Below are positions 4,869 to 17,200 of a stretch of DNA of 64,000 bases, one piece after another (positions within the stretch are counted from its first letter, which is position 1; the number at the start of each line of letters is the position of its first letter). Below the pieces are notes generated by a model. The model was given only the letters and a program-made list of their open reading frames with translations. It had not been told where the DNA came from and did not search any database. Made by a program: the position numbers and the translations under genes. Source of the DNA: Haloarcula sp. CBA1129. Lineage in GTDB: Archaea; Halobacteriota; Halobacteria; Halobacteriales; Haloarculaceae. The DNA lies in assembly GCF_008729015.1 (NCBI RefSeq), contig NZ_RKSM01000001.1, forward strand, positions 2,480,001 to 2,544,000, written 5' to 3'.

Positions 4869-5729
4869 CTACTGTTCGCCCATCCGCTCGCCGGCGACCC
4901 GACGCCCCTTCGTCGTCAGATTCACTTCAGTCCGTTCCCGGAGCACGCTGATCACGTCAAGTTCGATCAACCGGTCGAAGATCTCCTCGGTTTTCTCGAC
5001 GTCAATGCCGACAAAATTGGGGATGTCGAACGGCGATACGCCGGAGTGCAGCGCCATTATGACCCGCTTCTCCGTCGAGCTCAGGTCCAGATCGGCTTGA
5101 TTCTGTTCGGCACTCTCTTCGAGCATCGTCCGGAGAACAGTCGCGTGAAACTCCTCGCCCGCGAGATGTGTTTCGACGCTGATGTCGTCCTCGCTGTGCT
5201 CGACCTGAATGACCGTTCGCTCCTCGCCGCTGACCTGTTTCTCTTCGACGGCGAGGTCGCCGATGTCAGCGCGGTCGATGACAACCGCTTGCCCGTCGGC
5301 CATCGCGAGTTTCAGCGCCTCGTCAGTCACTTTGAGTCGGCCTTTCGTCCACTCGGCGGACTGGACGACGCCGCCTTTCAGCGCTGGATGTTGAACCAGC
5401 ACGATTGCACCGTCGAGACTCGCCCGGTAGAAATCGGTCTCGAATGTCCCATGATCCGATGCCGACACGAGAATAACGTCCTCGCCGACATAGAGCGCGA
5501 CGTAGTCTGAGACGCCGGCGCTCTGCTGATTCACGTCGAATCGGTCGGCAATACGGTCGATATCGGTCAATGAGATCTGCCGTTTGTCGTCGCCCAGCAG
5601 GGCGACCCGCTCTGTAGTGAGGACAATACGACAGTTTCGCCACTCGGCGTCGGTGAGGCGCTGGCCCTGTGAGACCGCCTGAAGGAACTTCCCCTTCGTA
5701 TCGGCGATCTTCTTTTCGGTGTCGCTCAT
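4869..5729 (-). CDS. cheF: CheF-family archaeal taxis adaptor, copy 1
   Basis: 286 aa protein of the archaeal CheF family (CheF-arch, formerly DUF439). In Halobacterium, CheF proteins connect the bacterial-type chemotaxis proteins (CheY and others) to the archaellum motor switch. Family marks seen are the W-R-x-C-R segment near residue 27 (EWRNCRIVLTTERV) and a C-terminal winged-helix-like part with the motif ALHSGVSPFDIPNFVG near 240. The ORF remains open upstream to 5933. ATG 5729 was chosen because MSDTEKK matches the N-terminal layout of copy 2 and a TATA-like box (CAATATAA, 5771-5778) lies 46 nt before it. No che, arl or arc gene is in the window. About one third of positions look shared with copy 2 by eye. 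Confidence 0.83.
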   Translation of the reverse strand: MSDTEKKIADTKGKFLQAVSQGQRLTDAEWRNCRIVLTTERVALLGDDKRQISLTDIDRIADRFDVNQQSAGVSDYVALYVGEDVILVSASDHGTFETDFYRASLDGAIVLVQHPALKGGVVQSAEWTKGRLKVTDEALKLAMADGQAVVIDRADIGDLAVEEKQVSGEERTVIQVEHSEDDISVETHLAGEEFHATVLRTMLEESAEQNQADLDLSSTEKRVIMALHSGVSPFDIPNFVGIDVEKTEEIFDRLIELDVISVLRERTEVNLTTKGRRVAGERMGEQ

Positions 5730-5778: not shown

Positions 5779-5894
5779 GTTCCGTCGCCAGTGTCGAAAG
5801 TGAGAACGGCCGACCGTGCTGGTAGTTCTCTTACAGCAGAATCGTACACAATTAGATAGGATATTTTTTGCGTGCGGCGATGTACTGTCAATTG

Positions 5895-7838
5895 ATGACA
5901 CGGGGTGACGAACCGGATCGGGGACAGTCCCACACGGGGCGAGAGACAGTCGAACCACCGGACTGGTTCGTCGAACAGGCGAACGTGACGGATCCGGCCG
6001 TCTACGACCGCTTCGAACGGGAGTGGCCCGATTGCTGGCGTGAGGCTGCCGAGTTGCTCGACTGGGAGGAGCCGTTCGAGACGGTGTTCAGTGGCACGGA
6101 CGGCCCGCCGTTCGAATGGTTTCCCGATGGCCGATTAAACGCTGCCTACAACTGCATCGACCGGCACCTCCCCGAACGGAAGAACCAGCTTGCACTGGTC
6201 TGGGAAGGAAACCTCGGCGAGGCACGGACATACACCTACCTCGAACTGTACCGGGAGGTCAACGCCTTCGCCGCGGCGTTGCGCGACCGCGGCGTCGGAC
6301 CGGACGACGTGGTGACGCTGTACCTGCCGATGGTGCCCGAACTCCCGGTCGCGATGCTGGCCTGTGCCCGCTTGGGTGTCCCACACAACGTCGTTTTTGC
6401 AGGGTTCTCAGCGGACGCACTGGCGACGCGCATGGAGCGGGCCGAGTCGGCGTATCTCATCACTTGTGACGGGTACTACCGCCGCGGTAGTGCCGTCGCA
6501 CAAAAGAACAAGGCCGATAACGCGCGCATCGCCGTCGACCACGACGTATCGGTCGTGGTGCTCGACAGACTGGGCCGTGACGTGCACTTAGGCGACGACT
6601 ACGACGACTATCACGACCTGCTGGCAGCACACGATGGAGACGAAGTCGAGCCCGTTCCACGGGCGGCCGACGACCCGCTCTTTCGCATCTACACTTCGGG
6701 AACGACTGGCCAGCCCAAAGCGGTCACGCACACGACGGGTGGGTATCTCGCACACGTCGCTTGGACCGCCCGGTCGGTCCTTGATATCAAGCCCGAAGAC
6801 ACCTACTGGTGTTCGGCCGACATCGGCTGGATTACCGGCCACTCCTACATCGTCTACGGCCCGCTCGCGCTCGGCACGACGACAGTACTGTACAACGGCA
6901 CAGCGGACCATCCCAAGAAGGACCAGCTTTGGGAACTCATTGAAAAGTACGCCGTCGACGTGTTCTACACCGCGCCGACGGCTGTCCGGGCGTTCATGAA
7001 GTGGGGCAAAGAGTACCCCGAGAAGCACGACCTCTCCAGCCTGCGGCTGCTGGGCACCGTCGGCGAGCCAATGGACGCTAGCGCTTGGAAGTGGTATCGC
7101 GAACACATCGGCGGTGGCGAGTGCCCCATCGTCGACACTTGGTGGCAGACCGAAACCGGTGCGGTGCTCGTGTCGACGTTGCCCGGTGTCGACACCATGA
7201 AGCCCGGAGCCGCTGGAACGCCGCTGCCGGGAATCGAGGCGTCCGTCGTCGACCGCGAAGGTGCGGCAGCCGAGCCGAACACAGCCGGTGAACTCGTCGT
7301 GACGCGCCCTTGGCCGGGGATGCCGCGCGCGCTGCTCGACGGAACGGACTGGGGCAGCGTCCCCGACGGTGCCGAAGATTGGCGGTACTACCCGGAGGAC
7401 AGCGTCTCGGCCGACGACGACGGCTACATCACGTTCCTCGGTCGGATCGACGACGCGATCAACGTCGCCGGCCGGCGGTTCAGCACCAAGGAACTGGAGT
7501 CGACAGTCGCCGGCGTCACCGGCGTCGCCGAAGCCGCCGTCGTTGGTGGCGACGACAAGAGGACCGGGACGGCGGTGTACGCGTTCGCATCCCCGGAAGA
7601 CGGCTACACGGACAGCGAACTCCGGACGGCCATCGAAGCGGCTATCGTCGACGCCATCGGCGGTATTGCCCGCCCCAAAGAAATCGTGTTCACGCCGGAT
7701 CTCCCGAAGACACGTTCGGGCAAGGTTATGCGCCGCCTGCTGACCGCAGTGGCAAACGACGAGGAGCTGGGCGACACCAGCGCGCTGCGTAACCCCGAAA
7801 TTCTCGGCGAGATTCAGTCGACGACGAGCAGGAAGTGA
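5895..7838 (+). CDS. acs: Acetyl-CoA synthetase (AMP-forming), copy 1
   Basis: Activates acetate to acetyl-CoA using ATP and CoA. It is 647 aa, the usual Acs length. Visible motifs are the adenylation loop YTSGTTGQPK near residue 270, TWWQTETG near 415 and PKTRSGK with the catalytic lysine at about K610. That lysine is also the residue regulated by acetylation in bacterial Acs. The N-terminal ACAS block is present (PDWFVEQANVTDPAVYDRF). Start choice is open: ATG 5895 (MTRGDEPD) is used, with ATG 5880 in frame, and TATA-like AT-rich DNA lies at 5852-5867. It is the first gene of the acetate island, upstream of the Bat-type regulator. A propionyl-CoA synthetase role cannot be excluded. Confidence 0.92.
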   Translation: MTRGDEPDRGQSHTGRETVEPPDWFVEQANVTDPAVYDRFEREWPDCWREAAELLDWEEPFETVFSGTDGPPFEWFPDGRLNAAYNCIDRHLPERKNQLALVWEGNLGEARTYTYLELYREVNAFAAALRDRGVGPDDVVTLYLPMVPELPVAMLACARLGVPHNVVFAGFSADALATRMERAESAYLITCDGYYRRGSAVAQKNKADNARIAVDHDVSVVVLDRLGRDVHLGDDYDDYHDLLAAHDGDEVEPVPRAADDPLFRIYTSGTTGQPKAVTHTTGGYLAHVAWTARSVLDIKPEDTYWCSADIGWITGHSYIVYGPLALGTTTVLYNGTADHPKKDQLWELIEKYAVDVFYTAPTAVRAFMKWGKEYPEKHDLSSLRLLGTVGEPMDASAWKWYREHIGGGECPIVDTWWQTETGAVLVSTLPGVDTMKPGAAGTPLPGIEASVVDREGAAAEPNTAGELVVTRPWPGMPRALLDGTDWGSVPDGAEDWRYYPEDSVSADDDGYITFLGRIDDAINVAGRRFSTKELESTVAGVTGVAEAAVVGGDDKRTGTAVYAFASPEDGYTDSELRTAIEAAIVDAIGGIARPKEIVFTPDLPKTRSGKVMRRLLTAVANDEELGDTSALRNPEILGEIQSTTSRK

Positions 7839-7839
7839 T

Positions 7840-7871
7840 CTGTTTCGTATAGTCTGGTTTTTCCGAAACAG
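7840..7871. promoter_or_regulatory. Inverted repeat CTGTTTCG/CGAAACAG after acs copy 1
   Basis: Perfect 8-bp arms at 7840-7847 and 7864-7871 flank a 16-nt spacer containing a T-run. The repeat starts two bases after the acs stop and lies about 110 bp before the regulator start. It could be a transcription terminator hairpin or a binding site, since it has the same GTTTC/GAAAC half-sites seen before acs2. Confidence 0.45.
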
Positions 7872-7893: not shown

Positions 7894-7908
7894 TGAAACC
7901 CTACTTCG
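7894..7908. promoter_or_regulatory. Putative regulator site TGAAACCCTACTTCG before the Bat-type gene
   Basis: The nine bases TGAAACCCT (7894-7902) recur exactly at 9667-9675 before acs2, followed in both cases by a related pyrimidine-rich segment (ACTTC versus GTTTC). TTGAA at 7893-7897 and TTCAA at 7909-7913 also form an outer inverted repeat. AT-rich TATA candidates follow at 7919-7926 and 7944-7950. The site lies where haloarchaeal upstream activating sequences usually occur. Function is inferred. Confidence 0.4.
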
Positions 7909-7977
7909 TTCAATTAGTACTATATCGCCGCTTTGACCGGAATACTTATTTCGCTATTATTCGATTTCCCGAAATAT

Positions 7978-9669
7978 ATGGACAGCGCAGCGGACCGGAT
8001 CGGTGAACAAGGGTACGAACAGCTCCGGCGCGCGGCTGAGACACATCGGTCCGACCTCGTACTCCGGCTCGGTGCGGAAGTCGGGCTCCGTCCGGCGGAG
8101 ATGACGGGCGTTCGGCTGACCGATATCACCGGGTTCGAGGGCCATCATCTGCTGTCCGTCCGCGAGGACGATGCGGTCGTACGCGAGACGTACCTCCCGG
8201 AGTCAGTCGAGCACGACATACGGAAATACGCGAACGCGGCCGGAAGCGCCGACGACGAACCGCTGTTTTCTGTCTCCCCGCGGCGACTCCAGATGCTCGT
8301 CAGCGAAGTGGCCGACCGCGCCGCCGACGCGGTACCGCAGCTGCGTGAAGTTTCCACTCGCGACCTCCGGTGGCGGTTCGCGGCGAGCCTGCTTGACGAC
8401 GGCGTCCCGCCGGACATCGTCTGCGCGCTCGGCGGCTGGGACCGGCTCGACCGGCTCGATCCCCTGCTCGATGAACCGGACCGGGAAACGATCGTTGGGG
8501 CCGTTGGCGGGTCCGGGAAGCGGGCGGTCTCAAGTGAGTCCCAGCGAGCTGTCGACTGGATTACGACTGTCAGCGAGGCGCTTGCAGCCGCTGCAACTGG
8601 TGAAGCGATTGCGACGACGGTCTGCGATCATCTGACGAAGACAGCAGGATTCGAATTCGCATGGCTCGCCGAACGAACGGGCGACGGACTGACACCGCGT
8701 GCAACGGCAGAAGTCGGTGAGACGGTCGTCGAGCGACAGATCGACGACCACGTCGAGTCGGTCACCGCTCCGCTCGACGTGGGCGACGTTCGCGTCGTCG
8801 ACGACAGCACCGCACCGGTTGTGCTGGCCCCGCTCGTAAGAGAAAACGCCGTTGCCGGTGTCATCGGTATCGGTGCCAGCGAGGGGGTCACAGACGCGGA
8901 CCGCGCCGTCCTGTCCGCGCTCGGCGTTCAGGTCGGCCACGCGCAGGCCGCCGCCGAACGCAAGCGCCTCCTGCTTGCCGACACCGTGACCGAACTGGAG
9001 TTCCACTGTGGGGACGAGCGGACGTTTACCGCCGGAGTATCCGGGGCGTTGGGCTGTACGGTCGAGCTGTCCGGCGTCGTTCCCGTTGCGGACCAGTCGC
9101 TGCTGTACTACCTGATGGTCGACGGTGCCTCGGCCGACGCGATACTCTCATATGCCGACGACGACGACAGCGTGGCTGACGCCAGACTCCTCGAAGAGCA
9201 CAGCGACGGCGCGTTGCTAGAGGTCGTCGTGACCGACACGCCCGCGCTCCAACTGGTCGAGAGCGGCGGCCGCATCCGCTCGGTGACGGCCACCAATGGC
9301 GTCGCGACTATCGCAGTCGAACTCGCCAGTGAAGCCGACATCAGACCGACGGTCAACGCCGTGACTGATGCCTACCCGGAGACATCGTTGGCGGCGAAAC
9401 GAGAGACTGAACGGCCGGCCGAGACCGACAGCGGGTTCCGCGACCGCCTGACTGACACTCTCTCAGACCAGCAGGAGACGGTCCTCCAAGCGGCCTATCA
9501 CAGCGGGTACTTTGAGTGGCCGCGCGGATCGACTGCCGAGGAGCTAGCTGACTCGCTGGACGTGTCGTCCCCGACATTACACAACCACCTCAGGAAAGCC
9601 CAGCAAAAGGTACTGACGGCGTTTTTCGACGACAGGCCGGCGGAGCCACGACAGCCGGCCGACAACTGA
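7978..9669 (+). CDS. Bat/HTH_10 regulator with an inactivated integrase-like N-terminus
   Basis: 563 aa, likely transcription regulator of the acetate island. Residues about 10-165 resemble a tyrosine-recombinase catalytic domain: box I RLGAEVGLRPAE with R38, and box II STRDLRWRFAASLL at 126-139 with R131. The two box II histidines are replaced by Arg and Trp, LGH has become LGG, and no tyrosine occupies the nucleophile position. About 190-325 looks like a GAF domain, 335-480 like the Bat-associated region, and about 490-550 is HTH_10 (DRLTDTLSDQQETVLQAAYHSGYFEWPR). Start ATG 7978 is used; a TTG frame at 7933 is less likely. The position between two acs genes suggests local regulation. Domain boundaries are by eye. 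Confidence 0.83.
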   Translation: MDSAADRIGEQGYEQLRRAAETHRSDLVLRLGAEVGLRPAEMTGVRLTDITGFEGHHLLSVREDDAVVRETYLPESVEHDIRKYANAAGSADDEPLFSVSPRRLQMLVSEVADRAADAVPQLREVSTRDLRWRFAASLLDDGVPPDIVCALGGWDRLDRLDPLLDEPDRETIVGAVGGSGKRAVSSESQRAVDWITTVSEALAAAATGEAIATTVCDHLTKTAGFEFAWLAERTGDGLTPRATAEVGETVVERQIDDHVESVTAPLDVGDVRVVDDSTAPVVLAPLVRENAVAGVIGIGASEGVTDADRAVLSALGVQVGHAQAAAERKRLLLADTVTELEFHCGDERTFTAGVSGALGCTVELSGVVPVADQSLLYYLMVDGASADAILSYADDDDSVADARLLEEHSDGALLEVVVTDTPALQLVESGGRIRSVTATNGVATIAVELASEADIRPTVNAVTDAYPETSLAAKRETERPAETDSGFRDRLTDTLSDQQETVLQAAYHSGYFEWPRGSTAEELADSLDVSSPTLHNHLRKAQQKVLTAFFDDRPAEPRQPADN

Positions 9670-9683
9670 AACCCTGTTTCACG
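9667..9683. promoter_or_regulatory. Inverted repeat TGAAAC-CCT-GTTTCA upstream of acs2
   Basis: 6-bp arms at 9667-9672 and 9676-9681 with a 3-nt centre. The repeat overlaps the stop codon of the Bat-type gene and ends 24 bp before the acs2 TATA box, where an activator would bind. It shares TGAAACCCT with 7894-7902. Function inferred. Confidence 0.45.
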
Positions 9684-9704
9684 TTATCGTAGTTAGACCC
9701 CCCG

Positions 9705-9712
9705 TTTATATG
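9705..9712 (+). promoter_or_regulatory. TATA box of acs2
   Basis: GTTTATAT, centred about 31 nt before ATG 9740, consistent with a leaderless or near-leaderless transcript. Confidence 0.55.
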
Positions 9713-9739: not shown

Positions 9740-11734
9740 ATGTCAGATGAAGATGTCCAGCTAGAAGCGCGGCTCGAAGAGCAGGAGGTTTTCGAGCCAC
9801 CGGAGTCATTCGTCGAGCAGGCAAACGTCACAGACGAGGGAATCTACGACGAGTTTACCGAGAACTGGCCGGAGTGCTGGGAGGGGGCCGCCGACCTCCT
9901 CGACTGGGACGAGGACTACGATCAGGTACTCGACGATTCGAACCCGCCGTTCTACGAGTGGTTCACCGACGGCACACTGAACGCATCGGCGAACTGCCTC
10001 GACCGCCATCTAGAGGAGCGTGGCGACGAGGCCGCTATCGAGTGGGTCGGTGAGCCGGTCGAGGAAGACAACATCACCTACACCTACGAGGAACTCCACC
10101 AGAAGGTCAACGAGTTCGCGGCCGGCCTGCGAGAGATGGGCGTCGGCGAGGACGACGTCGTGACGATGTACATGCCGATGATCCCGCAGCTGCCGATTGC
10201 GATGCTGGCCTGTGCCCGCATCGGCGCGCCCCACTCCGTCGTGTTCGCCGGCTTCTCCGCGGACGCGCTGGCGACGCGGATGAACTCCGCCGATTCGGAG
10301 TATCTGGTCACCTGCGACGGCTACTACCGCCGCGGCGACCCGCTCGACCACCTCGACAAAGCCAACGAGGGGCTGGGCGGTGTCGACCACGAGGTCGAAC
10401 GCGCCATCGTCGCCGAGCGGCTGATGGACGGCGACGGCTTCGACCACGACTACGCGGACAACCAGATCGCCTTCGAGGACGTCGTCGCCGACAACGAGGG
10501 CGAAACGGTCGAACCGGTCGACCGCGACGCCGAGGACATGCTGTTTCTCATGTACACCTCCGGAACGACCGGGAAACCGAAGGGCGTCAAACACTCCACC
10601 GGCGGCTACCTCGCGTGGGCGGCTTGGACCTCGCAGGCAGTGCTCGACATCAAACCCGAAGACACGTACTTCTGCTCGGCCGACATCGGCTGGATTACTG
10701 GCCACTCCTACATCGTCTACGGGCCACTCGCGCTCGGCACGACGACGATGATGTACGAGGGCACGCCGGACTACCCCGACAAGGACCGCCTCTGGGACAT
10801 CGTCGAGGAGTACGAGGCCGACCAGCTGTACACCGCACCGACGGCCATCCGCGCGTTCATGAAGTGGGGCAAGGAGTACCCCGAGCAGCACGACCTCTCC
10901 AGCCTTCGCCTGCTGGGAACGGTCGGCGAGCCAATCAACCCCCGCGCCTGGAAATGGTACTACAAGCACATCGGCAACGAGGAGTGCCCAGTGGTCGACA
11001 CTTGGTGGCAGACCGAGACCGGTGGGATGATGATAACGACGCTGCCGGGCGTCAAGGACATGAAGCCCGGGTCGGCCGGGCCGCCGCTGCCGGGCAACGA
11101 CGTCCGCATCGTCGACACCGAGGGCGAGGAGGTCGAACCCGGCCGCGCCGGCTACCTCACAGTCGATAAGCCGTGGCCCGGTATGCTCCGGACGCTGTAT
11201 AAGAACGACGAGCGATTTATCAACGAGTACTGGGCCGAGTACTCCGACACTGACAGCGACGATTCCGACGACTGGGTGTACTTCCCCGAGGACGGGGCCA
11301 AAATCGACGATGACGGCTACATCACCGTTCTCGGCCGCGTCGATGACGTCATCAACGTCTCCGGGCACCGCCTCGGGACAATGGAGATCGAGAGCGCCAT
11401 CGTCGGCGTCGAGGGCGTCGCCGAGGCCGCCGTCGTCGGCGGCGACCACGATATCAAGGGCGAGGCGGTGTACGCCTACGTCATCACCGAGGACGGCTAC
11501 GAAGAGAACGAGGAGCTCAGCAGTGCGATAATCGAAGGCGTCGAGGACGCTATCGGCCCAATCGCCCGGCCGGAGGCAGTCATCTTCACGCCGGAACTGC
11601 CGAAGACTCGCTCCGGGAAAATCATGCGCCGCCTGCTGGAAGATATCGCCAACGGCGAGGAACTGGGTGATACGAGCACGCTGCGAAACCCCGATGTCGT
11701 GAGCGACATCGAGAAGAAGGTCCAAGGGGACTGA
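9740..11734 (+). CDS. acs: Acetyl-CoA synthetase (AMP-forming), copy 2
   Basis: 664 aa, the same enzyme family and nearly the same motif order as copy 1: YTSGTTGKPKG near residue 272, ADIGWITGHSY near 315, TWWQTETGG near 420, and PKTRSGK with the catalytic lysine at about K627. It differs by an extra acidic stretch (DTDSDDSDDW, near 508) and a longer N-terminus. The two copies look strongly similar through the central region, so they are probably paralogs by tandem duplication around the regulator. It has its own TATA box and the shared upstream motif, so it may be differently controlled from copy 1. The DUF4212/SSS transporter genes follow after 51 bp. Confidence 0.94.
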   Translation: MSDEDVQLEARLEEQEVFEPPESFVEQANVTDEGIYDEFTENWPECWEGAADLLDWDEDYDQVLDDSNPPFYEWFTDGTLNASANCLDRHLEERGDEAAIEWVGEPVEEDNITYTYEELHQKVNEFAAGLREMGVGEDDVVTMYMPMIPQLPIAMLACARIGAPHSVVFAGFSADALATRMNSADSEYLVTCDGYYRRGDPLDHLDKANEGLGGVDHEVERAIVAERLMDGDGFDHDYADNQIAFEDVVADNEGETVEPVDRDAEDMLFLMYTSGTTGKPKGVKHSTGGYLAWAAWTSQAVLDIKPEDTYFCSADIGWITGHSYIVYGPLALGTTTMMYEGTPDYPDKDRLWDIVEEYEADQLYTAPTAIRAFMKWGKEYPEQHDLSSLRLLGTVGEPINPRAWKWYYKHIGNEECPVVDTWWQTETGGMMITTLPGVKDMKPGSAGPPLPGNDVRIVDTEGEEVEPGRAGYLTVDKPWPGMLRTLYKNDERFINEYWAEYSDTDSDDSDDWVYFPEDGAKIDDDGYITVLGRVDDVINVSGHRLGTMEIESAIVGVEGVAEAAVVGGDHDIKGEAVYAYVITEDGYEENEELSSAIIEGVEDAIGPIARPEAVIFTPELPKTRSGKIMRRLLEDIANGEELGDTSTLRNPDVVSDIEKKVQGD

Positions 11735-11785: not shown

Positions 11786-12247
11786 ATGACAGACAACGAC
11801 ATTCACGACGGCAGTAGCGACCGCTCTGTCGCTCCCGACGGCGGGACGGCGACCGATGCGGCACGGAAACACCAGAACACGAACTACCTCGACGAGGAGG
11901 TGAACCTCCTGAACCCCAGTACGGCGTACATGCGCGACCATCTGCGCATCGTCTGGTCCGGTTTCATCGTCTGGGCGCTCATCGTCTTCGGCCCCGTGAC
12001 GCTGACGGCCATCGCACCCGAAACGATGACGTCGATAACGGTGCCGCCGGGCTTCCCGCTGCATTACTTCACAGTGGCCTTGGGCGGCCCGACCGGGGCG
12101 CTGCTACTCGCGTTCTGGTACGCCCGCAAGCGCGACGCGCTCGACGAGAAGTACGGTATCGACCACAGTGGCGTCGGGACTGACACCGCGTCCGACAGCG
12201 GTGAACGGGGCGAGGCGGCGGCCACTGACGGGGGTGTCGAGCAGTGA
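11786..12247 (+). CDS. DUF4212 small subunit of a sodium/solute symporter
   Basis: 153 aa with two predicted membrane segments, at about 54-76 and 88-110, between hydrophilic ends. STAYMRDHLRIVWSGFIVWALIVFG is the DUF4212 family region, proteins called the putative small subunit of solute:sodium symporters and regularly found before an SSS permease. The acidic C-terminal tail after about 120 is probably cytoplasmic and disordered. The stop overlaps the next gene's GTG start by four bases (GTGA), indicating translational coupling with the permease. Confidence 0.87.
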   Translation: MTDNDIHDGSSDRSVAPDGGTATDAARKHQNTNYLDEEVNLLNPSTAYMRDHLRIVWSGFIVWALIVFGPVTLTAIAPETMTSITVPPGFPLHYFTVALGGPTGALLLAFWYARKRDALDEKYGIDHSGVGTDTASDSGERGEAAATDGGVEQ

Positions 12248-13917
12248 CGGTCCCGCTGCAGGCCGAAGCGCTCGATATCTCGTTCAAGCTCGTCCCGGCC
12301 ATCCTCGTCTTCCTGATGATGGCCTCGTTCCTCGTCATCGGCTACGTGTTCAAGGTGGCCGACACCGAGGGGATGTGGGTCGCTGGCCGCGGCATCGGCA
12401 ACATCGAGAACGGGATGGCCATCGGCGCGAACTGGATGTCCGCCGCCTCGTATCTCGGGCTGGCCGGGCTGGTCGCGCTGTCAGGCTTTTACGGTCTGGC
12501 GTTCATCGTCGGCTGGACGACCGGCTACTTCGTGTTGCTCATCTTCCTCGCCGCGCAGATGCGCCGGTTCGGGAAGTACACCGCGCCGGACTTCGTCGGC
12601 GACCGGTTCAATTCGCCGACCGCTCGCGCGTTGGGGGCGTTCACCACGCTGCTCATCGCGTACGTCTACTCCGTCGGGCAGGCCCGCGGCATGGGCCTCG
12701 TCGGCCAGTACGTCTTCGGGCTGGACATCATCCCGATGATCGTCGTGATGATGACGATAACCGTCGGCTATCTGGCGCTCTCGGGGATGCTGGGCGCGAC
12801 GAAGAACATGGCGGTCCAGTACGTCATCCTCATCGTCGCGTTCCTCGCTGGCGTCTACGTCGTCGGCTTCTCGCAGGGGTACTCGACGATTCTGCCACAG
12901 ATCGAGTACGGCGCGCTGTTCAGCGAGCTCGGCCGCCAGTTCTCGGCCCCGTTCCGGAGTAGTTCCTACTACATCTGGGTCGCGACAGCGTTCTCGCTTA
13001 TCTTCGGTACCTGTGGTCTGCCCCACGTCCTCGTGCGGTTCTACACCGTCGAAAACGAGCGGACCGCCCGCTGGTCCTGCGTCTGGGGGATGTTCTTTAT
13101 CCTCCTGCTGTACTGGGCCGCGCCCGCGATGGCGGCCTTCGGCGTCGACCTCTTCGGATCAGTGACCGGCACGAACGCCTACGCCGCACAAGGCGGTATG
13201 TCCGGTGCCGAGGGCGACGTTATCGTCGTGCTCGCCGCGCAGTTCGCGAACCTCCCGACGTGGTTCGTCGGCCTCGTCGCAGCCGGCGCGATGGCCGCGG
13301 CGATTGCGACCACCGCGGGGCTGTTCATTACGGCCTCCTCGGCGGTCGCCCACGACATCTACACCGAGCTTATCAACCCTGACGCGACCCAGCGCCAGCA
13401 GGTGCTCATCGGCCGCGCGACCATCGTCGCCATCGGCGCACTGGTGACCGTGACCGCGTTCAACCCGCCGGCGCTCATCGGTGAACTGGTCGCCTACGCG
13501 TTCTCACTGGCCGGTGTCGTTCTGTTCCCGATGTTCTTCCTCGGACTCTGGTGGGAGAACACCAACCGGGAGGGCGCGCTTGCCGGGATGACGGTCGGCC
13601 TGCTGCTGTGGATCGGCTCCGTCGTCAACAGCGTCCTGCCGAGCTATATCGGCGCACTCGGCGCGGCGACGGGCGAGAGCGGCGCGCTCGTGCCCATCTA
13701 CGCCCAGTACGTCCCGCCGATAGGTGCGGCACTCATCGGCACGCCGCTCGTGTTCCTCGTCACCATCGGCGTGTCGCTGCTGACCGATGAGCCTCCGATG
13801 GAGACCAAGCGGATGGTCCGGCAGTGTCACAGTCCCGAACCGATGGGCCAGCAACAGACCGCCGAAGACATCGTGAGCGAGAGCGGCGGCAGCGGTGGCA
13901 CCCCCGCAGACGACTAA
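12244..13917 (+). CDS. Sodium/solute symporter (SSS), probable acetate permease ActP-like
   Basis: 557 aa multi-pass permease of the SSS family with about 13 hydrophobic segments. Typical marks are the ANWMSAASYLGLAG segment near residue 60, GTCGLPHVLVRFYTV near 255, and a C-terminal hydrophilic tail. It starts at GTG 12244, overlapping the DUF4212 gene; no better start is visible. In bacteria, ActP-type members of this subfamily import acetate with sodium, and the neighbouring acs genes support that substrate here. Pyruvate or other short carboxylates are alternatives. Acts in the cytoplasmic membrane. Confidence 0.88.
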   Translation: MTVPLQAEALDISFKLVPAILVFLMMASFLVIGYVFKVADTEGMWVAGRGIGNIENGMAIGANWMSAASYLGLAGLVALSGFYGLAFIVGWTTGYFVLLIFLAAQMRRFGKYTAPDFVGDRFNSPTARALGAFTTLLIAYVYSVGQARGMGLVGQYVFGLDIIPMIVVMMTITVGYLALSGMLGATKNMAVQYVILIVAFLAGVYVVGFSQGYSTILPQIEYGALFSELGRQFSAPFRSSSYYIWVATAFSLIFGTCGLPHVLVRFYTVENERTARWSCVWGMFFILLLYWAAPAMAAFGVDLFGSVTGTNAYAAQGGMSGAEGDVIVVLAAQFANLPTWFVGLVAAGAMAAAIATTAGLFITASSAVAHDIYTELINPDATQRQQVLIGRATIVAIGALVTVTAFNPPALIGELVAYAFSLAGVVLFPMFFLGLWWENTNREGALAGMTVGLLLWIGSVVNSVLPSYIGALGAATGESGALVPIYAQYVPPIGAALIGTPLVFLVTIGVSLLTDEPPMETKRMVRQCHSPEPMGQQQTAEDIVSESGGSGGTPADD

Positions 13918-13921
13918 ACCA

Positions 13922-14395
13922 ATGTACGAACACATCCTCGTTCCGACGGACGGTAGCGAAACCGCGGAGAACGCGGTCGATCAGGCGATAGACATCGCCT
14001 CGAAGTACGGCGCGACGGTTCACGCGCTCTACGTCGTTGACGTCGACGCCACCAGCTACTCGCTGGGCACGGAGCAAGTCGACCGCATCCGTCAGGGTCA
14101 CCTCGACGAGATGACCGAGGTGAAAGCAGACGCAGACGAAGCGACCGGCTACGTCCGCGACCGGGCCGCCGAACACGGCATCGCCGTCGAGGAGCACGTC
14201 ACCGCCGGCGAGCCGGCTCGGGCCATCCGGAAGTTCGTCGAGGACAACGACATCGACCTCGTCGTAATGGGGTCACACGGCCGTTCGGGCCTCAAACGCG
14301 TCATCCTCGGCAGCGTCACGGAAAAAGTACTCCGACGGACGCGACTCCCGGTGCTCGTCGTTGACGTCCACGGCGAAACGGACGTGGAAGTCTAA
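13922..14395 (+). CDS. Universal stress protein (UspA family)
   Basis: 157 aa single Usp domain. It begins MYEHILVPTDGSETAENA and carries the ATP-binding type signature GSHGRSGLKRVILGSVTEKVL near residue 118, the G-x2-G-x9-G-S/T arrangement that suggests nucleotide binding. ATG 13922 was chosen because it gives the canonical beta-1 start; the frame stays open to 13895. It follows the symporter by four bases and is probably in the same operon. In haloarchaea, Usp proteins commonly sit next to transporters, where a regulatory role is suspected but not proven. Confidence 0.9.
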   Translation: MYEHILVPTDGSETAENAVDQAIDIASKYGATVHALYVVDVDATSYSLGTEQVDRIRQGHLDEMTEVKADADEATGYVRDRAAEHGIAVEEHVTAGEPARAIRKFVEDNDIDLVVMGSHGRSGLKRVILGSVTEKVLRRTRLPVLVVDVHGETDVEV

Positions 14396-15465: not shown

Positions 15466-16332
15466 CTACTTCTCACTCATCGCTTCACTCGCCATATTCC
15501 GGCCCTGCGCGTTCAGCGCGACTTCGGTGCGGACCCGGACCTCGTCGACGGCCCCGATATCGAGCAATTTCTGGTAGATTTCCTCGACCTCGTCCGGACT
15601 GGTTCCGACGAAATCAGACATCTCGAAGGGTGAGACGCCGGAGTACAGCGCCATCAGCACCTGACTCTCCATCTCCGAAAGCTCGTAATCGTCCTCGCGA
15701 CCCTCGATAACACGAGTGAACAGCGTCTTCAGCGCCCGCGTGTGGTGGTCCATCCCCGAAACGTGGGTTTCGACGCTGCGGCCCTGCTCGTCGGTGTGTT
15801 CGACCTCGATGACCTCCCGCTCCTGACCCATCACGGTGCTGGTCCCGGTCTCGATAGTTCCGACATCCTCGATTTCGAAGGACGTGCTCTTGCCTCCGGG
15901 GAACTGGAGGCGGATGATGTCATCGTCCAGTTGAAACCGAGCCTTGCTCCACTCGGCGTCCTCTTGCACGACGCCGCCGACGACCGCCTGCTGTCGCGCA
16001 AGGATGACCTCACCCTGTAGCGTCGCGCGGACGTACTCCGTCTCAAAGTCGTCCATGTTCGGCGTGTCGACGAGCAGGACGTTGTTGCCTACCTCAAGCG
16101 CCGTCGCGCCGCCGGTGCCACCGTCAGGAATCAGGTCGTCTGGGTTCGACGGGAGGGTAATGTTAGAATGTGGAATGGGCTGTTTCGAGCCGTTCGTCGC
16201 GAGAATGAGCCGCTTGTTGGTGACGATGAGTCGACAGGAGCGCCACTTCGGGTCGGACACCTGATTGCCATCGCGGACGACGTACTGGAAGTCCCCCGAC
16301 GTGTCGACTAGCTTGCGTTCGTCACCACTCAT
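15466..16332 (-). CDS. cheF: CheF-family archaeal taxis adaptor, copy 2
   Basis: 288 aa, second CheF-arch (DUF439) protein of the window. It shares the layout of copy 1: DPKWRSCRLIVTNKR near residue 28, and ALYSGVSPFEMSDFVG near 242 in a C-terminal winged-helix-like part. The family links the Che signalling proteins to the archaellum motor. ATG 16332 (MSGDERK) is used; the open frame to 16431 has no family similarity, and a TATA-like TTATTT lies about 37 nt upstream. The last ten codons look like the GAGTGAAGCGA-type repeat that continues beyond the stop. It is downstream of uppP on the same strand with a 55 bp gap. Confidence 0.83.
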   Translation of the reverse strand: MSGDERKLVDTSGDFQYVVRDGNQVSDPKWRSCRLIVTNKRLILATNGSKQPIPHSNITLPSNPDDLIPDGGTGGATALEVGNNVLLVDTPNMDDFETEYVRATLQGEVILARQQAVVGGVVQEDAEWSKARFQLDDDIIRLQFPGGKSTSFEIEDVGTIETGTSTVMGQEREVIEVEHTDEQGRSVETHVSGMDHHTRALKTLFTRVIEGREDDYELSEMESQVLMALYSGVSPFEMSDFVGTSPDEVEEIYQKLLDIGAVDEVRVRTEVALNAQGRNMASEAMSEK

Positions 16333-16387
16333 GGCCGCTGATAGTAGAGATTTGACGCCGAAGGGTAAATAAGTTCCAGCACCGTTC

Positions 16388-17200
16388 TCACAGCGCGACG
16401 AGCAGCCCGCCGACGACGCCAAGACCGCCAAACACCGTACAGACCGCCCAAAACGGGACCTGCCGCACCAGTCGGACCAGCGCGTCGACGGTGAGATAGC
16501 CGACGACGGCGCTCACGACGAGGGCGACGACGGCCGGTAGCGGGTCAATCGCCGGCACGCCGTCGTCGATGAGGACCAGTGCGTTTGCGGCGAGTGCGGC
16601 TGGAATCGACAGCAGAAACGAGAGCCGAAGCGACGACTCGCCCTCGTGGCCCCGGAGCAACAGCGCACTCACTGTCGTCCCGGACCGGGAGACACCGGGA
16701 AGAATAGCCAGTCCCTGCAACACCCCGACGAGAACGGCGTCAAGCCAGTCGGGAACCTCGCGCTCGCCCAGCGACAGCGCCGAGGCGAAGCGCTGGAGCA
16801 GGCCAGTGATGACGAGGAGCCCACCGACCAGCGCCAGAAAGAGCCCGCCCTCTAGCCCCGAAACGGCTGCGTCGAGCACCAGATATGCAGGGAGACCGGT
16901 GACAGCGGTCGCCGCCGTCGCGATGACGATAAAGGAGAGGTCTGCCGTCTCGTCGGCGAACGGGCGGCGCGAGAGTTGCCGAATCGAACGGAGGATGGTT
17001 CGGACCTCGGTTCGGTAGTAAGCCGTCGCCGCGACGGCCGTCCCGGCGTGGAGAAAGAGCGCGAGGCGAGTCGCGGCGGCGGGCGAGACGCCCGTGACTA
17101 CTGTCGAGGCGAGCGCGACGCCGCCCTCGCTAGAGACCGGAATCCACTCCAGCACCCCTTGCAGCAGGCCCAGCAGGATAGCGACGAGAATCGGGTTCAT
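16388..17200 (-). CDS. uppP: UppP/BacA-family polyprenyl-diphosphatase
   Basis: 270 aa integral membrane protein of the BacA/UppP family, which removes a phosphate from polyprenyl pyrophosphate. In an archaeon the likely substrate is a dolichyl or similar diphosphate released during glycosylation. Both family active-site motifs are present: LEWIPVSSEG at 17-26 and PGVSRSGTT in the second half. ATG 17200 (MNPILVAILLGLLQG) is the family start; the open frame to 17281 overlaps the divergent mscS promoter. It is divergent from mscS. Biological role in archaea is inferred from the bacterial enzyme. Confidence 0.9.
   Translation of the reverse strand: MNPILVAILLGLLQGVLEWIPVSSEGGVALASTVVTGVSPAAATRLALFLHAGTAVAATAYYRTEVRTILRSIRQLSRRPFADETADLSFIVIATAATAVTGLPAYLVLDAAVSGLEGGLFLALVGGLLVITGLLQRFASALSLGEREVPDWLDAVLVGVLQGLAILPGVSRSGTTVSALLLRGHEGESSLRLSFLLSIPAALAANALVLIDDGVPAIDPLPAVVALVVSAVVGYLTVDALVRLVRQVPFWAVCTVFGGLGVVGGLLVAL

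Follow-up and report, generated by a model that had tools for sequence, protein, structure and literature searches.

In the genome of Haloarcula sp. CBA1129, two acetate–CoA ligase genes, acs1 and acs2, stand on either side of a gene for a putative transcriptional regulator, and the question raised by this locus is through which DNA sites that regulator acts on its own gene and on acs2. A preliminary description had proposed a single motif, TGAAACCCT, shared by both promoters. From comparison of the window (the whole stretch of 64,000 nucleotides analysed here) with related genomes, we consider it moderately probable that a local regulator of the Bat family activates the acs2 operon via a separate box and represses itself via a pair of dyads, with TGAAACCCT not serving as a shared operator.

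The features discussed are collected in Table 1. Synteny of acs1, regulator, acs2 and symporter is maintained across the order, and acs1 adjoins the regulator in nearly all loci (for acs1, the tblastn and family queries used the sequence from 5904 onward). Synteny with Haloferax alexandrinus identified acs2 as the acs7 orthologue. The complete order in the window (acs, regulator, acs, DUF4212, symporter, usp) is that of the Haloferax operon, and the acs–DUF4212–symporter–usp order, found both in the window and on the Haloferax plasmid, matches that of the Haloferax-type acs–actP operon. In Haloferax volcanii, the acs7–HVO_A0155–actP–uspA28 operon is transcribed on acetate and not on glucose or casamino acids, as determined by Northern blot (PMC7746861), and the corresponding acs genes of H. 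mediterranei are up about 3-fold on acetate (PMC11784441). Neither of these two papers names a regulator for the acetate-induced acs genes. The gene flanked by acs8 (HVO_A0158) and acs7 (HVO_A0156) should, from the locus numbering, be HVO_A0157, and a search of the open-licence literature found no paper that mentions it. Flanking the acetate cluster in the window are two similar one-family proteins (4869–5729 and 15466–16431, both on the minus strand), which by eye resemble the archaeal taxis protein CheF.

Table 1. Features of the acetate locus, in positions of the window.
Feature	Position	Strand	Basis or remark
acs1, AMP-forming acetate–CoA ligase	5895–7838	+	TIGR02188, 729 bits, above cut-off; upstream of regulator
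Dyad 1, GTTTCG-N16-CGAAAC	7842–7869	.	Directly 3' of acs1 stop; intergenic in own genome
TGAAACCCT, first copy of the preliminary description	7894–7902	+	Seen in no other locus examined and in no other close Haloarcula
TATA-like element ACTTATTT, regulator promoter	7944–7951	+	Overlaps left half of dyad 2; placed by distance to ATG
Dyad 2, ATTTCG-N16-CGAAAT	7948–7975	.	From regulator TATA box to start codon; conserved across order
Regulator, 563 amino acids	7978–9669	+	Tyrosine-recombinase-like domain (about 10–175), GAF, BAT, HTH_10
TGAAACCCTGTTTCA inverted repeat, second copy of the preliminary description	9667–9681	.	Overlaps regulator stop codon
acs2 box TTATCGTAGTTAG, consensus TTNNNRTARTTAG	9684–9696	+	8 bp upstream of TATA box
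acs2 TATA box TTTATA	9705–9710	+	Sequence and position; conserved in orthologues
acs2, acetate–CoA ligase	9740–11734	+	TIGR02188, 846 bits; Haloferax acs7 orthologue by position
Small symporter subunit (DUF4212)	11786–12247	+	PF13937, TIGR03647
Sodium:solute symporter, ActP-like	12244–13917	+	PF00474, TIGR03648
Universal stress protein, last gene of likely operon	13922–14395	+	PF00582; Haloferax order identical

At the promoter of the regulator itself, two dyads of the consensus RTTTCG-N16-CGAAAY, with an A/T-rich interior, bracket the promoter, and CTTATTTCG at the TATA-like element is conserved in congeners. A survey of 86 loci, representing some ten families, allowed one mismatch per dyad and found one dyad or more in 73 loci and two in 57. 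Their gap is rigid: in 46 loci, a gap of 16 accounted for 77 pairs and no other gap for more than 4, and the second commonest gap over the 86 loci is 15, found in most members of one family. Some regulator loci (e.g. L088 and L090–L092) carry degenerate dyads or none. The CBA1129 genome contains eight perfect dyads, six of them inside open reading frames, which for two of the six measure about 198 codons, and the remaining two being dyads 1 and 2; with one mismatch, the dyad occurs at 81 places, too many for interpretation. Across loci, dyads are practically missing from the acs1 and acs2 promoters, as an autoregulatory site predicts. Distances between the two dyads peak, over many loci, at 95–97 and 105–109 bp, one helical turn apart; this phasing signal was not significant after related values and clusters had been collapsed.

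Because the intergenic copies occur only at the regulator's own promoter, where one covers the core promoter, the dyads are best read as autoregulatory, and since dyad 2 spans the stretch from the TATA box to the start codon, its occupancy should repress, so that the effect is probably negative. Alternatively, the dyads could be true operators at which another, unlinked transcription factor exerts control over the regulator. We regard this as unlikely but worth serious consideration, given that the dyads differ in sequence from the box at acs2 described below; the confinement of intergenic dyads in this genome to the regulator promoter fits a local autoregulator better, and the dyads track the regulator gene through the families and on Haloferax plasmids.

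At the acs2 promoter, the second copy of TGAAACCCT (9667–9675) does belong to the inverted repeat that the preliminary description had recognized, TGAAAC-CCT-GTTTCA, which ends 23 bp, rather than the reported 24 bp, upstream of the TATA box. The repeat opens with the TGA codon (9667–9669) that terminates the regulator gene. Of the 14 closest Haloarcula genomes (CBA1129 included; regulator identity 84% or higher), 11 carry the complete repeat and 3 a changed version, and the acs2-side copy accounts for five distinct sequences among the 86 loci, every one from close Haloarcula. Retention on this scale, while the middle of the acs1–regulator stretch diverged freely, would suit a genuine extra site restricted to Haloarcula sensu stricto and serving this or another regulator. 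Such a site seems rather unlikely, however, as part of the left arm is made up by the stop codon, the repeat is not invariant even among close relatives, and it is missing from all other genera, where the adjoining box persists.

That box lies in the 23 bp between repeat and TATA box, a stretch which had been left blank and which contains GTTATCGTAGTTAGACCCCCCG. The box, TTNNNRTARTTAG followed 7–9 bp on by a TATA box, recurs throughout the order, with the variant TTTTGCACAACTAGAG in one family. Using a strict pattern ([CT]TAG 7–9 bp before YTTW), this candidate site, directly upstream of the target TATA box as in the Bat family, was found in 114 of the 129 acs promoters that immediately follow a regulator gene and in 1 of the 29 acs2 orthologues (identity 74% or higher) that have no regulator next to them (Fisher p = 4e-19), although the loci are related by descent and not phylogenetically independent, so that p overstates independence, genome sampling is uneven and start codons are predicted. 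Included in the 129 are promoters of upstream acs paralogues of 58–61% identity, several of them without a recognizable box. Most of the 15 promoters missed keep the box at other TATA spacing, and the rest are mainly those of more distant acs paralogues or of genes with doubtful start codons. The sole positive among the 29 (L089) has its box further upstream, and a regulator is present more than 600 bp upstream; in L186 and L188, which have no nearby regulator, TTAG lies 10–11 bp from the TATA box.

Losses follow the same association. Two Haloarcula genomes (G023 and G028) have no regulator and have kept acs2 with a core promoter that aligns with those of relatives but in which the box is replaced; in two further genera (two genomes and one genome, respectively), acs2 likewise stands without regulator and box. 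Where the regulator was kept and acs2 lost, the box is found upstream of the symporter genes instead. In Haloferax alexandrinus and H. gibbonsii, both box and dyads occupy the corresponding place. The box might in principle belong to the acs2 core promoter in general, as a BRE or as start-site context, rather than being a regulator site, and its nearly constant distance from the adjoining TATA box is in keeping with this; its absence from orthologues that lack the regulator and share this core promoter makes this improbable. Because a TATA-adjacent box comes and goes with an adjacent HTH_10 gene, it is best read, by analogy with Bat at bop, as an activator site of the HTH_10 protein.

The box was also considered as the mark of a multi-gene regulon, which was rejected: TTNNNRTARTTAG has 9 genome matches compared with 10 for the control, and acs2 alone when the TATA box is included. 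Similarly, the only genome match of RTARTTAG-N7-9-YTTAW is acs2. At acs1 the box is not general, occurring in 16 of 89 promoters across the order. The acs1 promoters of close Haloarcula contain a nearly invariant ACACAATTAGATAGGATATTTTTT (5846–5870 in the window), whose core and TATA spacing resemble those of the acs2 box. A second TTAG-type sequence in reverse orientation (CTAACTGTTTAGTG or CTAACTATCTAG) was seen near the regulator stop in loci of two genera (L047, L049, L050 and L052–L055).

Bat, the bacterio-opsin activator of Halobacterium, works via a site in the bop promoter (PMC1502140, PMC3184054). The regulator has the BAT and HTH_10 families in common with Bat (GAF/PAS-BAT-HTH_10) and differs from it in its N-terminal tyrosine-recombinase-like domain, its location in the acetate cluster and the other sequence of the dyads at its own promoter. 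The rhodopsin promoters scanned have ACCnnACTAGnTnGGT-like sites, a pattern that also agrees with the published Bat UAS. This bop-UAS-type operator, a feature of Bat itself and not of every family member, is not matched by the acs2 box: the Bat UAS is an ACC..GGT palindrome and the box is not, an ACTAG-like core alone being common to both, with the same ACTAG core in the box variant of one family, ACAACTAGAG. By sequence, the acs2 box is thus related to the Bat UAS, yet a distinct site.

As for TGAAACCCT itself, the exact copies upstream of the regulator and acs2 are present as first reported, and the motif is indeed not found upstream of acs1 or the symporter; the regulator-side copy (TGAAACCCTACTTCG) forms no proper inverted repeat. 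A scan of the 4.05-Mb genome with the extended motif TGAAACCCTRYTTC, as had been suggested, returned two places without mismatch, both at the acetate locus, a count that is partly circular in that the pattern was derived from the same two sites; relaxed to one or two mismatches, it has matches scattered genome-wide. When the two intergenic stretches were Markov-shuffled, an exact 9-mer in common arose in 9.5% of shuffles and a 9-mer with a 12/14 match in 2.5%, rising to 38 and 7%, respectively, over the six promoter pairs open to comparison. The repeat is genuine, yet weakly surprising, because equally good shared words are obtained in 2.5–10% of shuffles for one pair and 7–38% for six. Lack of conservation upstream of orthologous genes, which the preliminary description had named as refuting its proposal, is what genome comparison gave: the regulator-side copy was found in 0 of the 13 other close Haloarcula, and the only one of the 86 order-wide loci to carry it is that of CBA1129 itself. 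Since the motif fails this comparison, with one copy private to its own genome and the other limited to close Haloarcula, TGAAACCCT was rejected as a shared operator. An operator common to both promoters is very improbable despite the exact repeat in adjacent intergenic regions, the presence of just two exact extended copies genome-wide and the dyad symmetry of the acs2 copy. The wider idea of a regulator that controls both its own gene and acs2 probably holds; it is the route via TGAAACCCT that is unsupported, other elements being the conserved ones. Hardly credible, finally, is that the dyads are RNA hairpins or acs1 terminators, for although the acs1 stop directly precedes dyad 1, pairing is limited to about 6 bp around a constant 16-base gap and most of dyad 2 precedes the start expected for a leaderless transcript.

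For the regulator protein, matches to BAT (PF15915, 153.9 bits; cut-off 25.8) and HTH_10 (PF04967, 73.1 bits; cut-off 23.1) were well above threshold; the GAF match fell under the Pfam cut-off, and GAF structures were among the structural matches. A profile match to XerA (E = 4e-16) assigned the N-terminal 175 residues to a tyrosine-recombinase domain, and the predicted structure of this block (pLDDT about 95) has the recombinase fold, with Cre and XerA as best structural matches. The domain is homologous to archaeal XerA and shares its fold with XerA and phage Cre; compared with Cre, both catalytic arginines (Arg38 and Arg131) and Trp154 are retained. Unlike XerA and Cre, the regulator has no separate core-binding domain, lacks the catalytic Tyr and His of the R-K-HxxR-H/W-Y set and is fused to a sensor and HTH_10. 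Recombinase catalysis appears unlikely because His is replaced by Arg128 and the nucleophilic Tyr by Leu163, a position at which Tyr occurs in just 12 of 39 regulators in the family alignment. As these two catalytic residues are replaced, the regulator is classed as a member of the Bat/HTH_10 family, outside the tyrosine recombinases; loss of the catalytic set may have been gradual or repeated. Natural loss of the N-terminal domain might have served to tell the two DNA-binding domains apart, but no acs-linked regulators without it were found, variants merely inserting PAS-like stretches behind it. In other genera (L143–L149 and L193–L212), a long, apparently PAS-like insertion lies between the recombinase-like and GAF domains, with locus, dyads and box kept. 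Arg102 is invariant in the 39 regulators and aligns with Arg259 of Cre, a residue whose base contacts lie towards the outside of the lox arm. This would fit a reading of the outer TTTCG by the recombinase-like domain.

Taking these elements together, we infer that the regulator most likely binds the TTNNNRTARTTAG box that immediately precedes the acs2 TATA box, where it would aid binding of TBP/TFB and so activate the acs2–DUF4212–symporter–usp operon. Most likely it also binds both TTTCG-N16-CGAAA dyads around its own promoter, and occupancy of dyad 2 would shut that promoter, giving negative autoregulation. The GAF/BAT part would have a sensory role, responding to redox or to a signal related to acetate. 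A counterpoint is that box and dyad differ in sequence, so that a single protein would need two recognition modes. One tentative solution, which we hold to be possible rather than probable, is a two-headed regulator in which the dead recombinase domain reads the dyads for autorepression and HTH_10 reads the TTAG box for acs2 activation; the RTTTCG-N16-CGAAAY dyad, at 28 bp, is as long as a recombinase core site.

Acetate-specific induction of acs–actP genes was already known in haloarchaea, and what is added here is one candidate regulator gene together with two exact candidate operators. Species in which regulator and box are both missing are natural knock-outs. The protein suggests the recruitment of a recombinase domain into an archaeal transcription factor; if the two-headed reading is true, such a domain would, across an archaeal order, have been turned into a transcription factor that responds to acetate.
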